Below are positions 298-61,710 of a stretch of DNA of 64,000 nt, in pieces. The notes under the pieces are model-generated. The model ran no database searches. It was given only the letters and a program-made list of their open reading frames with translations, and was not told the origin of the DNA. The stretch is from Thermococcus eurythermalis (GTDB taxonomy: Archaea; Methanobacteriota_B; Thermococci; Thermococcales; Thermococcaceae). The position numbers were made by a program, and so were the translations under genes. Position 1 is the first letter of the stretch. Every line of letters starts with the position of its first letter. The stretch covers positions 1,860,001-1,924,000 of the forward strand of contig NZ_CP008887.1 in NCBI RefSeq assembly GCF_000769655.1, in the 5' to 3' direction.

Positions 298-749
298 CGC
301 TCAAGAACCACCTGGGCATAGCTCCTTGGGTCTTCCCACACTTTGACGAGGATTTTTTTCACGTTGTCCCCTGCCTTTTCTGCTATCCTTTCAGCAAACC
401 ACTCGGCTATGTACTCAGCCGTGACGTTGGGCTTGTTTAGGACTACAACTTCCTCCCCAGGGAGCTCAAGCCGTTTGCCGTTCTTTTCGACGACCACTCT
501 TCCCCCTCTTTTCTCTACAACCCAGTCCTCGCTTACGAGAATCCTGTGGTCAAGGAGTTTTATGAGCTTGCTGAGGTGGTTGAAGTCGAATATCATACCG
601 TTCTCGTTGATGTCGCCCCATATCTCCACGTCAACGTTGTAGGTGTGGCCATGTATGCGGAGGCACTTGCTGTCGTAGGGAAGGGCGAGGAAGTGCGAAC
701 TGTCGAAGTCCTTGTGCCAGCCTATCTTTCTCTCCACGACCCTGAACAT
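294..749 (-). CDS. 6-pyruvoyl-tetrahydropterin synthase / QueD family protein
   Basis: This 151-aa protein has the size and motifs of the PTPS/QueD fold. The zinc ligands are an early His (SSHF, near residue 19) and the HGH motif near residue 34, with the catalytic-type Cys four residues before it (KCLRIHGH). A C-terminal VWEDP segment supplies the pterin-anchoring Glu. Members convert 7,8-dihydroneopterin triphosphate to 6-carboxytetrahydropterin (archaeosine/queuosine route) or to pyruvoyl or hydroxymethyl pterins. The Cys argues against the PTPS-III variant, in which Glu replaces it. The start ATG at 749 has a GGTGAA ribosome site. MptA at 56.9-57.7 kb makes the upstream pterin. The exact substrate is inferred, not shown. 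Confidence 0.85.
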   Translation of the reverse strand: MFRVVERKIGWHKDFDSSHFLALPYDSKCLRIHGHTYNVDVEIWGDINENGMIFDFNHLSKLIKLLDHRILVSEDWVVEKRGGRVVVEKNGKRLELPGEEVVVLNKPNVTAEYIAEWFAERIAEKAGDNVKKILVKVWEDPRSYAQVVLER

Positions 750-56428: not shown

Positions 56429-56704
56429 CTATAGGTTATCCCCGTAAACGTTCTCCCTCTTGCCGACTTTTAGGATTTTGACAACTCTATCTTCCTTCAG
56501 GTACTCGAAGATTACTCGATACTGTCCAACGCGCAGGCGGTAAACGTTCTCATGTCCCTTGAGCTTTTGGACGTCTAGGTGGGCCAGAGGGAAAAAAGAC
56601 AGCTTGGATATCCTGTCCTTTATCAACTCCTTCTCGTGTTGTGGGATACCCTGGAGTTCTTTCAGGGCTTTCTTGCTTATCAGAACCCTGTTCTCAAAGC
56701 TCAT
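56429..56704 (-). CDS. RelE/ParE-type toxin
   Basis: The 91-aa protein matches the RelE fold: ISKKALKELQGIP, KDRISKLSFFPL, LDVQKLKGHENVYRLRVGQYRVIFEYLKEDRVVKILKVGKREN. RLRVGQYRVIF is the typical central strand with Arg residues that act on ribosome-bound mRNA. It overlaps the antitoxin gene by 11 bases, so the two are one operon. The cassette is bracketed by a duplicated mptA 3' end. Confidence 0.88.
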   Translation of the reverse strand: MSFENRVLISKKALKELQGIPQHEKELIKDRISKLSFFPLAHLDVQKLKGHENVYRLRVGQYRVIFEYLKEDRVVKILKVGKRENVYGDNL

Positions 56705-57770: not shown

Positions 57771-59180
57771 TTAAAGGTCACCACAAAAGTTCAGCAGGAA
57801 ATCTTTAAGCCCCTCCCTGATTTCGTCGCTAACAGCTACTGCCCCGTGTTCTATCCTCACGTCTTTTCCAACCCTTGAAAGCTCGTACCCAAGTACTGCA
57901 AGCTTTGTGCCGTCAAAAAAGCGCAGAACGTCCCTCTCGCCCGCTTCAAAGAGGTCAGGAATCCAGTGGTTGTACCTGCCCTCCAGGCGTGGGTATATCA
58001 GGATAACGCCACCACCCACCAGCTTGGCGTACGCATAAGCTTGATACAGCTCGGAGCTCTTTCTAACGAGCTTCCTAACGCTCCTGCCCTGGTTGTGGAG
58101 GTATACGCTGAGGCTGCGGTACTTGGACTCAACTATAAACCTCCCCTTCTTGCACTTCACGACCACGTCGGGCAGGGGGTTGCCCATCATGAACATCGCC
58201 CTTCTCTTCTCCTCGTACTCGCGGGCGTTTTTTATCAGGTGGGGCAGGCTCTCCTGGGCCCTGACCTCTGCCTCTCCCCCCAGAACCGCCCTTATCGTGT
58301 GGTAAACAAGCCCCTCAAAGAGCCTGTCCATGCTCACGAATATCCCGGGCAGAACGCGGTTGCGGGTGCCTATGCCTACAAAACCTGAAATTATCGCCTC
58401 CGCGAGGTTAAAGACGTTCCTGAACCTCTCGCTCAGGTGGTTAAACGCCACCCTGGAGCTGTCCCCATATCTCAGCGGGCCGACTTCCACGAAAGCCCCC
58501 ATCAGCATCCCGCCTAACTTCCGGGTTGACTTCCACTTGGAGGTGGTCACAACAATCTCAAGCGCCCTCTTAAGGACTCTGTTGAGGGGGTTGTCCTCCA
58601 TCATCACCGAATACCTGACCGGGACTTCCAGCTTCCAGGGCGGCTTCCTCGCCATCCTGTTCATCAAGAGCCTTCCCCTGAGCACCCCAGAGTTCTCCTC
58701 GACCTCCCCGTACTCTATGTAAGGCCCCTCGCTCAGGGCCTTCGCCAGGAGGAGGACGTACATGCTCTTGAAGAGCTCGTCTATGTCCCCCGTCCTGCTG
58801 TACTCTTCGGAAAGGGCCCTCAGCTCCCCAGCCCCCACCCTCATTCCTCTGACTAGGTTGAGGAGCTGGAGGAAGAACTGGACGGAGCGCCTGTCGTCGG
58901 GGTCTGTCCTGAAAGGCTTCGGGAGAACCTGAAACGTTATCTTCTTCCCGTTGGTCACGTAGTACGCGAACCCAACACTCCCGTGGGCCCTCAGGTAGTG
59001 CTCCCTGTCCCTGGGAGAGTATTCGAGGCTGAACACCGTGTGCTCGCCGCCGTGAACCGAGTTGATGACCTCAACGAAGTGGGAGAGCTCCGGGTACGAG
59101 AGATTCACCCCCATGCCCCGGAGCCGGCTCATTGGGATTTTTCCAAACTCGTAGAACCTCACGACGACGTCCTGGGTCAT
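57771..59180 (-). CDS. McrC-like restriction subunit with PD-(D/E)XK motif
   Basis: The 469-aa protein follows McrB in an operon and shows the McrC plan: an N-terminal beta domain, a helical middle ([17 protein letters not shown], typical of McrC), and a nuclease domain with [22 protein letters not shown] (Asp, Glu, Lys of the PD-(D/E)XK site). It should cleave DNA once the McrB ring translocates. Its ATG overlaps the McrB stop (ATGA). Confidence 0.85.
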
Positions 59181-61267
59181 TTCTCGTTCACCATTCTGCG
59201 GAGGGTTTCAAGGAACTCCTCGTCGCTCATCTCTATTATCCTGCCCTTCTCATCTATGAAGCTGAACCCCGGAAGGGCCCTGCGGAGTGCCTCCCAGTTG
59301 CCGTAGAAGTACTCCTGCAGGAGGGGGAGTATCTTGTAGTAGAAGACCCTCTTCAGCGCGCTGACCTTGTCCTCCGACCTGACGACCTCCATGAAGTAGC
59401 CGTGGCCGATGGTGTAGTCCTTGCCGCGCTCCTCTTCAATCGTCTCGTTGATCTTAGAAAGAAGGTGCTGGAGGTTCACTCCCCCGACTTCCACGTGGCC
59501 GAGCTCTTCGGGTCTCGGAAGGAACTCAACGAAGGCAAACCTCCTCCTCAGGGCCATGTCGAGGAATGCTATGCTCCTGTCGGTCGAGTTCATCGTGCCG
59601 ATGATGTAGAGGTTTGGCGGCAGGGAGAATGGCTCTCCCGAATACGGAAGCGTCACGATGGTCTCCATTTCCTCTCCAAGGCGTTTATCGTGGTCGAGGA
59701 GGGTTATAACGTCCCCAAGAATCCTGCTTATGTTTCCCCTGTTTATCTCATCGATGACGAGGTAGTATTTGCCCTTCGGGTGGAACTCAAGCTTTTCGCC
59801 GTTTTTCTTCCGCTCAAGGAAGTCCACAACAACCTTTTTCATCTCCTCGTAGTCAGCGCCCCGCGAACCGGTTATGCCGTGGTATATCGCCTCGACGGCC
59901 ATTCTCTTGAGGATTCCGTCCTCGACACGGTACACCAGCCGCCCGTCCTGCTCCGCGGGCCTGAATCCCTCCACGAAGTCCTCGTAGCTGTATGACTGGT
60001 GGAAGGTCACCACCTCTAACCGGGTGGCCTTTTTTGCGAGTTGTATAGCCCTCTGTGTCTTTCCGGTTCCAGGGGGGCCGTAGAATATAACGCTCCTGAA
60101 CGCCTCTATGATTCCTGGAATCGGGTCTTCATCAACTTCTCCTTCTCCGGTCGGGGACTTGTCCGTCTTGAGGGTGTAAAGGTACGGGTTGTCCTTGAGG
60201 AGGTAGTAGTAAAACCCGCCGCTCGGGCTCGTCTTCCCGGAAGTCCTGCCTATGTACAGCGTCTGCCCGTCCCGGGAGATGCCAGAAAACTTCGGGTCGA
60301 GGAATTCGGGATTATAGCGCCCGAAGATAGTTCTGTCTTCCAGGTCATCGAGGGATATTGACTTTTTCTCCTCCAGCTTTTCATAGGAGACTGTGCCGCC
60401 GTAGAGGTACCCTCTGAACTGGCCGATGACCACAAAGAGGCCCCTCTCGGTAAAGCGGGCGAAAACGAGCTCCCCTGGAAGGGGGAGGACGGTTGTCCTT
60501 TTGTCCATTATGTATATCTCCGTCCCCATCTTGGTGCCGAGAAGGGCAATGGGCCTTCCGTCCCTGACCCACACGTCACCGATTGCCCCCTTTACAGCGG
60601 GAGGGGCGGTGTAGGTCGCCACTATCTCCATCCCATCCCAAAACTCAAGGGCCGAGTAGTATGGATAAACTGGGAACGGGACTTTTCCAATCCTGAGGAC
60701 GGACTTTTTCCCGTTTGGCTCCCTGAACGTATGCAGGATGTAAGCTTCCTCCTCAGTGTCGTACACCCCATGAAAAAACGCGTATCCCCCTGGCAGTTTT
60801 GGAATGAAAAGAACCTCCGTTTCCGCAGGGGCCGTGAAGTTTATGCTCATGTCCCCGAAGACAACGACCCTGTCGTTTGGCGTCAGGAGGATATAGATTG
60901 GCGGCTTTGAGAAGGCCACCCTGAGCGCGTTTTCTTTTGGGGGCTCCTCAAGGGGGTATAAAGCAACTTCCCCACCGCCGCACTTCGAAAAAACTCCGAT
61001 GTAGTTCTTTCCAGGGAAAATTATGACGTCCGACTGGCAGGGAATCGGCACCCCTCCCTCCCAGCCTTTTACAGGGTCTCCGGACGTGTAGAACGCGTGC
61101 AGAAACCTCGAATCGTAGTCGTCCCTGACGAGAACGGCCAGGTACTTTCCATCGTCGGAGAGCTTCATCTCCTCAATAGAAAACCCTACCCTCTCTTCCT
61201 CATACTCTTCGGACAAATAGCTGTTTATCCTCTCCACTGCCGACTTAACGGGTTCAAAACGGCCCAT
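59177..61267 (-). CDS. McrB-like AAA+ NTPase with long beta-rich N-terminal domain
   Basis: The 696-aa protein ends in a McrB-type AAA+ module: Walker A GPPGTGKT (397-404), Walker B LVIDEINRGN (503-512) and the signature MNSTDRSIAFLDMALRRRF (559-577). Residues 1-375 are not the usual small DNA-reading domain but about ten short beta repeats with turns such as SDDGKYLAVLV, PGKNYIGVFS, NDRVVVFG, TERGLFVVIG and SRDGQTLYIG, which look like a beta-propeller. The ligand for this domain is unknown. ATG 61267 is preceded by gaggtggggg. The McrC gene follows by ATGA. Confidence 0.82.
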   Translation of the reverse strand: MGRFEPVKSAVERINSYLSEEYEEERVGFSIEEMKLSDDGKYLAVLVRDDYDSRFLHAFYTSGDPVKGWEGGVPIPCQSDVIIFPGKNYIGVFSKCGGGEVALYPLEEPPKENALRVAFSKPPIYILLTPNDRVVVFGDMSINFTAPAETEVLFIPKLPGGYAFFHGVYDTEEEAYILHTFREPNGKKSVLRIGKVPFPVYPYYSALEFWDGMEIVATYTAPPAVKGAIGDVWVRDGRPIALLGTKMGTEIYIMDKRTTVLPLPGELVFARFTERGLFVVIGQFRGYLYGGTVSYEKLEEKKSISLDDLEDRTIFGRYNPEFLDPKFSGISRDGQTLYIGRTSGKTSPSGGFYYYLLKDNPYLYTLKTDKSPTGEGEVDEDPIPGIIEAFRSVIFYGPPGTGKTQRAIQLAKKATRLEVVTFHQSYSYEDFVEGFRPAEQDGRLVYRVEDGILKRMAVEAIYHGITGSRGADYEEMKKVVVDFLERKKNGEKLEFHPKGKYYLVIDEINRGNISRILGDVITLLDHDKRLGEEMETIVTLPYSGEPFSLPPNLYIIGTMNSTDRSIAFLDMALRRRFAFVEFLPRPEELGHVEVGGVNLQHLLSKINETIEEERGKDYTIGHGYFMEVVRSEDKVSALKRVFYYKILPLLQEYFYGNWEALRRALPGFSFIDEKGRIIEMSDEEFLETLRRMVNEK

Positions 61268-61314: not shown

Positions 61315-61710
61315 TTATCTCTTAACCTGTTTACTTGCCATGTAGTAAACTGTTCGGAGGGGTATCCCAAGGCGTTCGCTGATTTCCCGCATCGGGACGC
61401 CCTTCTTGGCTAACTCGCGGACGAGCTTCACCGTTTTTTCGTCGTACTTCCGCGGCCTCCCGCGCGGCCTCTTCTCCGGGACGAGCTCAATCCCGAGCTG
61501 GCCGAGGGCGTAGATGACCCTCTTCGAGACCTTCGGGTAAAGGCTCGGAGGACAGCTTATCCGCTTCACGTTGGGGGCGTTCTCAAGTATCTTAACAACC
61601 ACCTCCTTGGTGGGCCTCAGGCTGACGTAGACCTCGGTAACGTCCTCGCCCAGCGAGGACAGCTTCCACAGGAGCTCATCGTAGGTCCTCGCGCTGACCC
61701 TTACCTTCAT
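61315..61710 (-). CDS. DUF1699-like protein with AT-hook and helix-turn-helix
   Basis: The 131-aa protein has an N-terminal alpha/beta region (MKVRVSARTYDELLWKLSSLGE; VYVSLRPTKEVV; ISCPPSLYPKVS) that I recall as DUF1699. A basic AT-hook-like KRPRGRPRKYD follows, then a helix-turn-helix (ISERLGIPLRTVYYMASKQ). It is probably a DNA-binding regulator. It ends just after the McrB promoter region and follows DUF530 by four bases on the same strand, so it may be cotranscribed with topoisomerase VI. Confidence 0.75.
   Translation of the reverse strand: MKVRVSARTYDELLWKLSSLGEDVTEVYVSLRPTKEVVVKILENAPNVKRISCPPSLYPKVSKRVIYALGQLGIELVPEKRPRGRPRKYDEKTVKLVRELAKKGVPMREISERLGIPLRTVYYMASKQVKR

Follow-up and report, generated by a model that had tools for sequence, protein, structure and literature searches.

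The McrB-like protein encoded in the Thermococcus eurythermalis DNA analysed here, a stretch of 64,000 nucleotides that we refer to as the window, carries a predicted seven-bladed beta-propeller at its N terminus, in place of the base-reading domain of known McrB proteins. At roughly even odds (a probability of about 0.5), we read the locus as an McrBC restriction system in which the propeller replaces the base-reading domain and binds a ligand other than a Dam or Dcm mark. In such a type IV-like system the propeller would recognise something other than a Dam or Dcm mark on incoming plasmid or virus DNA, the likeliest candidates being a protein, a nucleoprotein or a structural property of that DNA, and would in this way recruit the McrB ring. 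Driven by GTP, the ring would then translocate the DNA, and McrC would cleave it. A targeting role for the propeller is suggested by its N-terminal position and by the known division of labour in McrB (PMC7680126), and we infer a ligand other than a modified base. McrBC systems are taken as methylation-dependent, and a genetic study of Thermococcus kodakarensis describes its pair likewise; the propeller head is an argument for at least one branch of McrBC sensing something other than methylation.

Table 1. Features of the mcrBC locus in the window.
Feature	Coordinates	Strand	Basis
mcrC, 469 aa	57771..59180	-	PF10117, 4.5e-52; 4 bp overlap with mcrB end
McrC PD-(D/E)xK catalytic stretch, D338...E351-S-K353	58122..58169	-	Conserved in 19 homologs
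mcrB-like gene, 696 aa (predicted propeller and McrB GTPase)	59177..61267	-	ORF call, Pfam, PDB match
Arginine-finger/sensor II region RRR, residues 574-576 (role by analogy)	59540..59548	-	Invariant in 21 sequences
McrB GTPase signature NxxD (NSTD), residues 560-563	59579..59590	-	N560, S561 and D563 invariant in 21 sequences
Walker B DEINR, residues 506-510	59738..59752	-	Invariant in 21 sequences
Walker A GPPGTGKT, residues 397-404	60056..60079	-	Invariant in 21 sequences
Variable linker, residues 370-388	60104..60160	-	Low confidence in structure models
Predicted seven-bladed beta-propeller, residues 1-369	60161..61267	-	AlphaFold2 pLDDT 83, pTM 0.84; fold matches
Predicted blades, residues 29-75, 81-119, 125-156, 162-220, 228-262, 266-317, 323-367			Reading of DSSP string
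Predicted ring-closing strand 3-6 (pairing with blade 7); helix 8-22			DSSP string

A preliminary description of this DNA had proposed that a propeller-like half is followed by a full McrB AAA+ module and by an McrC partner with a PD-(D/E)XK site, and both module and partner are borne out. The mcrB reading frame is genuine: its ATG start codon at 61267 is preceded by a Shine-Dalgarno-like GAGGTG, and the same start is kept in relatives. Residues 393-577 match the Pfam family AAA_5 (2.1e-17), and the closest solved structure to the 696-residue protein in a PDB sequence search is Thermococcus gammatolerans McrB (6ut3, 2.8e-68). The protein thus has the Walker A, Walker B and NxxD motifs of an McrB-type AAA+ GTPase; the role given to the RRR at residues 574-576 was assigned by analogy, after PMC7680126. 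The McrC encoded beside it retains its catalytic site, and PD...ExK is intact in all 19 aligned McrC proteins.

Using an alignment of five sequences (T. eurythermalis and four related loci), AlphaFold2 produced a model of the N-terminal domain with a pLDDT of 83.3 and a pTM of 0.84, and pLDDT exceeded 80 in four of the five models. By our own count on the DSSP string of this model, 28 strands make up seven four-stranded groups, and one further strand lies at the N terminus; the prediction is of a closed ring of four-stranded blades, as in a beta-propeller. A Foldseek search of the PDB returned 143 matches at E <= 0.001 with propellers leading and Dark among them. The best structural alignments were to seven-bladed propellers, mostly of WD40 type (Z 14.9-16.0 over 262-288 residues), including the SSU processome/Pwp2, Hsv2 and Atg18, RbBP5, RACK1, Cdc20 and G-beta. 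Z was at least 8 for 931 of the 967 aligned PDB chains, the top 50 covering most or all of the domain, and viral predicted structures also returned propellers as fold matches. The propeller-like N-terminal half that had been suggested, in place of a DUF3578, YTH or EVE domain, is therefore upheld as a prediction, with seven blades counted.

Neither residues 1-375 nor the corresponding regions of the 21 relatives matched a Pfam family significantly, and there was no convincing PDB sequence relative and no profile match to a propeller family. Up to an E value of 10, none of the 21 N-terminal domains matched the DUF3578, YTH/EVE or B3 base-reader families in Pfam, nor the WD40-repeat profile, the likeness to WD40 proteins being one of fold only; Beta-prop_Aladin was touched by two members at E 0.39, which is chance level. 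The repeated short beta motifs to which the preliminary description had drawn attention (DGKYLAVLV, RDGQTLYIG and similar) do exist and are located in blade 1 and blade 7, but the repeat does not reach significance at the sequence level (best off-diagonal profile self-alignment, E = 0.08). Because the motif repeat alone falls short of significance, the propeller fold rests on structure prediction; given that prediction, the fold search and the fact that 21 species-level genomes conserve the entire domain, the motifs are more than chance.

These sequence results, the five-sequence alignment and a full-length model whose AAA+ half is poor (and which is uninformative on domain arrangement) could be taken to mean that the N-terminal half is not a propeller and that the model is an artefact of a shallow alignment. 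We consider this very improbable in view of the pTM, the agreement of four of the five models above pLDDT 80 and the breadth and coverage of the fold matches, and the full-length run placed nearly the same strands in the N-terminal domain as did the model of the isolated domain.

Among known systems, T. gammatolerans McrBC (6UT3-6UT8) is of the same genus and has the same architecture of McrB GTPase and McrC, but its N-terminal domain is a compact YTH reader of 6mA (PMC7680126), whereas that of T. eurythermalis is a predicted propeller of ~370 residues without a Pfam match. Escherichia coli K-12 McrBC likewise shares Walker A and B, the NxxD signature, the McrC PD-ExK and adjacent genes, while its N-terminal domain, a DUF3578 that reads methylcytosine, is unrelated. 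The MoxR-vWA-beta-propeller systems (PF20030, PMC7159879) also combine an AAA+ motor with propellers and are predicted conflict systems; in these, however, the propeller is on the vWA partner and has about four blades, there is no McrC nuclease, and the AAA+ clade is different. We rejected membership in that group, the partner here being McrC and none of seven scanned gene products of the T. eurythermalis stretch having a Pfam match to vWA. Apaf-1 and Dark likewise hold an NTPase and propeller sensors in one chain, but they are animal apoptosis proteins with C-terminal WD40 propellers and a STAND NTPase, and the likeness is an analogy only. Nothing relevant on a fusion of McrB with a propeller or WD40 domain was found in the literature; the main text of an McrBC census does not mention one, and an earlier mention is possible in its supplements. 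A separate McrB-like protein of 920 residues (L148:984-3743, minus strand) matches EVE within the AAA+ region (residues 467-581), apparently through an inserted specificity domain.

Homologues with the same fusion, whose search the preliminary description had recommended, occur in 21 of 61 Thermococcus genomes (E below 1e-90), always within a full McrB-like frame. In the 20 relatives extracted, McrC lies downstream of the fusion McrB, cut by a contig end in one of them. The N-terminal domain was not found in the 33 genomes searched from other genera of its family, has no convincing match in 115 genomes of the phylum (one weak match, E 0.003) and was not found in the viral contigs, plasmids or phages searched; one scan of genome contigs found it in four Thermococcus MAGs only. 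Weak matches in two further genomes (G021 and G024; E 0.001, 143-residue frames) were not recovered by a profile and were treated as chance. Other McrB-like proteins of Thermococcus are at different loci and have different N-terminal halves.

The order top6A, DUF530, HTH, McrB, McrC (and MptA where covered) is shared by T. eurythermalis and 19 relatives, and is interrupted by a contig end in one further relative; all 20 fusion genomes that could be checked have the locus beside topoisomerase VI. In three non-carriers (G019, G021 and G024) MptA comes next after the HTH gene, with a gap of at most ~60 bases, and in other non-carriers a membrane-protein gene lies between the two. This gene, of ~260 residues, occupies that position in many genomes (L110, L122, L124, L126, L128); it precedes McrBC in G028 and follows it in G033, so the cassette is not always at exactly one junction. 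We considered a functional link to topoisomerase VI and set it aside, the shared location being equally explained by one ancestral insertion followed by losses. The small HTH protein (window 61315-61710) has weak similarity to DUF1699 and to resolvase HTH domains, and its gene adjoins the topoisomerase VI and DUF530 genes in all genomes in which this site was examined, whether or not they carry McrBC. The window also holds a ParE-family toxin gene at 56429-56704 (PF05016, 3.9e-10).

Pairwise distances in the N-terminal domain correlate strongly with those of the GTPase motor (r = 0.94) and of McrC (0.92), and less with those of top6A, DUF530 and MptA (0.43-0.53). The mean distance is 0.47 for the N-terminal domain, 0.29 for the GTPase and 0.07 for topoisomerase VI, so that the domain diverges faster than its motor. 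Evolving with the motor but faster is the behaviour expected of a sensor, and judging from these sequences the system appears to be an old resident that some genomes have lost, with a sensor that evolves fast.

T. kodakarensis KOD1 (G023) is one of the carriers. The computed mass of its fusion McrB, 79,677 Da, agrees with the 79.7 kDa listed for TK0795 among proteins on isolated T. kodakarensis chromosomes (PMC7325993; the same table gives top6B as TK0799). The KOD1 McrB loci, at ~692.8-694.9 kb and at ~883 kb (the latter with an McrB of 828-829 residues), have sizes that fit the deletion amplicons of TK0794-TK0795 and TK1009-TK1010 in the genetic study (PMC13385129). On these grounds of mass and gene size the KOD1 fusion McrB is TK0795, of McrBC1. 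Its N-terminal domain is ~58% identical to that of T. eurythermalis, with the same fusion at the same topoisomerase VI locus; the pairs are orthologs, with nothing essential different between them.

According to the text of PMC13385129, the TK0794-TK0795 deletion strain (TS902) has the greatest transformation efficiency among the strains tested, and the trends are relatively similar for dam+/dcm+ and dam-/dcm- plasmids. McrBC deletion strains grow more poorly, and lysate of TS904, which is without both McrBCs, still degrades methylated plasmid and not unmethylated plasmid. Since this lysate retains it, the methyl-dependent activity does not need TK0794-TK0795, although redundancy in the lysate test could mask methyl-dependent cutting by McrBC1, and plasmid from dam-/dcm- E. 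coli may retain other marks, e.g. those of EcoKI. The transformation data suggest that the ortholog restricts DNA without dependence on Dam or Dcm and agree with Dam/Dcm-independent sensing, and the growth defect suggests an additional role for McrBC. The same text presents McrBC1 only as a standard 5mC/5hmC McrBC and has no mention of a propeller, and its passages on these results do not discuss the N-terminal domain. With a propeller head, these puzzling published results (an effect that is strong on unmethylated plasmids too, the chromosome association and the growth cost) become predictions that can be tested in a genetically tractable archaeon, whose TK0794-TK0795 deletion strain already exists.

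Propellers such as DDB2 read DNA, and the fold by itself is therefore not enough to establish non-methyl sensing. The preliminary description had taken a propeller to suggest sensing of a protein, glycan or other modified ligand; its fold part stands, but the step from fold to ligand is not one that the fold implies. With DDB2 as a precedent, the propeller might itself be a direct DNA reader that recognizes a DNA structure, a damaged or otherwise unusual base, or a further kind of modification (4mC, 5hmC or a deaminated base), and we regard this as rather doubtful. It would accord with the DNA binding of all the characterised McrB-family N-terminal domains named in PMC7680126 (DUF3578, YTH and B3), with the co-purification of TK0795 with the chromosome (PMC7325993) and with five invariant residues (R48, R54, K95, K246 and R317) in or beside loops of one predicted face. 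However, the domain is acidic (pI 5.1, 42 K+R against 52 D+E, and similar in seven relatives), a mild counter-argument to plain DNA binding, and the effect of the ortholog does not follow Dam/Dcm methylation in the text of PMC13385129. DNA-reading propellers were also not prominent among the fold matches, an absence that proves nothing. Conservation is slightly higher in loops of the presumed top face than in those of the bottom face (entropy 1.12 vs 1.37, p ~0.03), a difference too weak to point to a binding face in the model. The invariant C77 and C96 belong to adjacent loops of predicted blade 2 and share one presumed face, where they may be joined by a disulfide or make up a binding site.

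By analogy with the WD40 domains of Apaf-1 and Dark, the propeller could alternatively act as a regulator or tether that docks McrBC on host chromatin or on a host protein, or that keeps the motor inactive before a signal is received. The chromosome association of TK0795 (PMC7325993), the fixed locus, the growth cost of deletion reported in PMC13385129, the presence of Dark among the Foldseek matches and the company that propellers keep with MoxR AAA+ conflict systems (PMC7159879) are all in keeping with such a role. We nonetheless think it unlikely, given that deletion strongly affects plasmid entry according to the text of PMC13385129, and that patchy presence and fast evolution of the N-terminal domain suit a defence sensor better.

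Returning to the reading we prefer, in which the propeller targets McrBC to a non-Dam/Dcm feature, we tentatively extend it to the genus: Thermococcus propeller McrBCs may possibly distinguish foreign DNA from their own by a protein or nucleoprotein that the propeller binds (a chromatin protein, for example, or the lack of one) instead of by base modification, and would then constitute a modification-independent McrBC class, in which TK1009-TK1010 may likewise use a different, unconfirmed propeller. The McrB of T. kodakarensis McrBC2 (L150:1752-4235, plus strand) has an N-terminal half of ~400 residues with propeller-like hairpins, e.g. SPDSRYLLVE, as does an McrB of 817 residues in G014 (L151:2019-4469, plus strand). 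Homology to the T. eurythermalis N-terminal domain is not supported by alignment, hhalign giving a probability of 1.6%.
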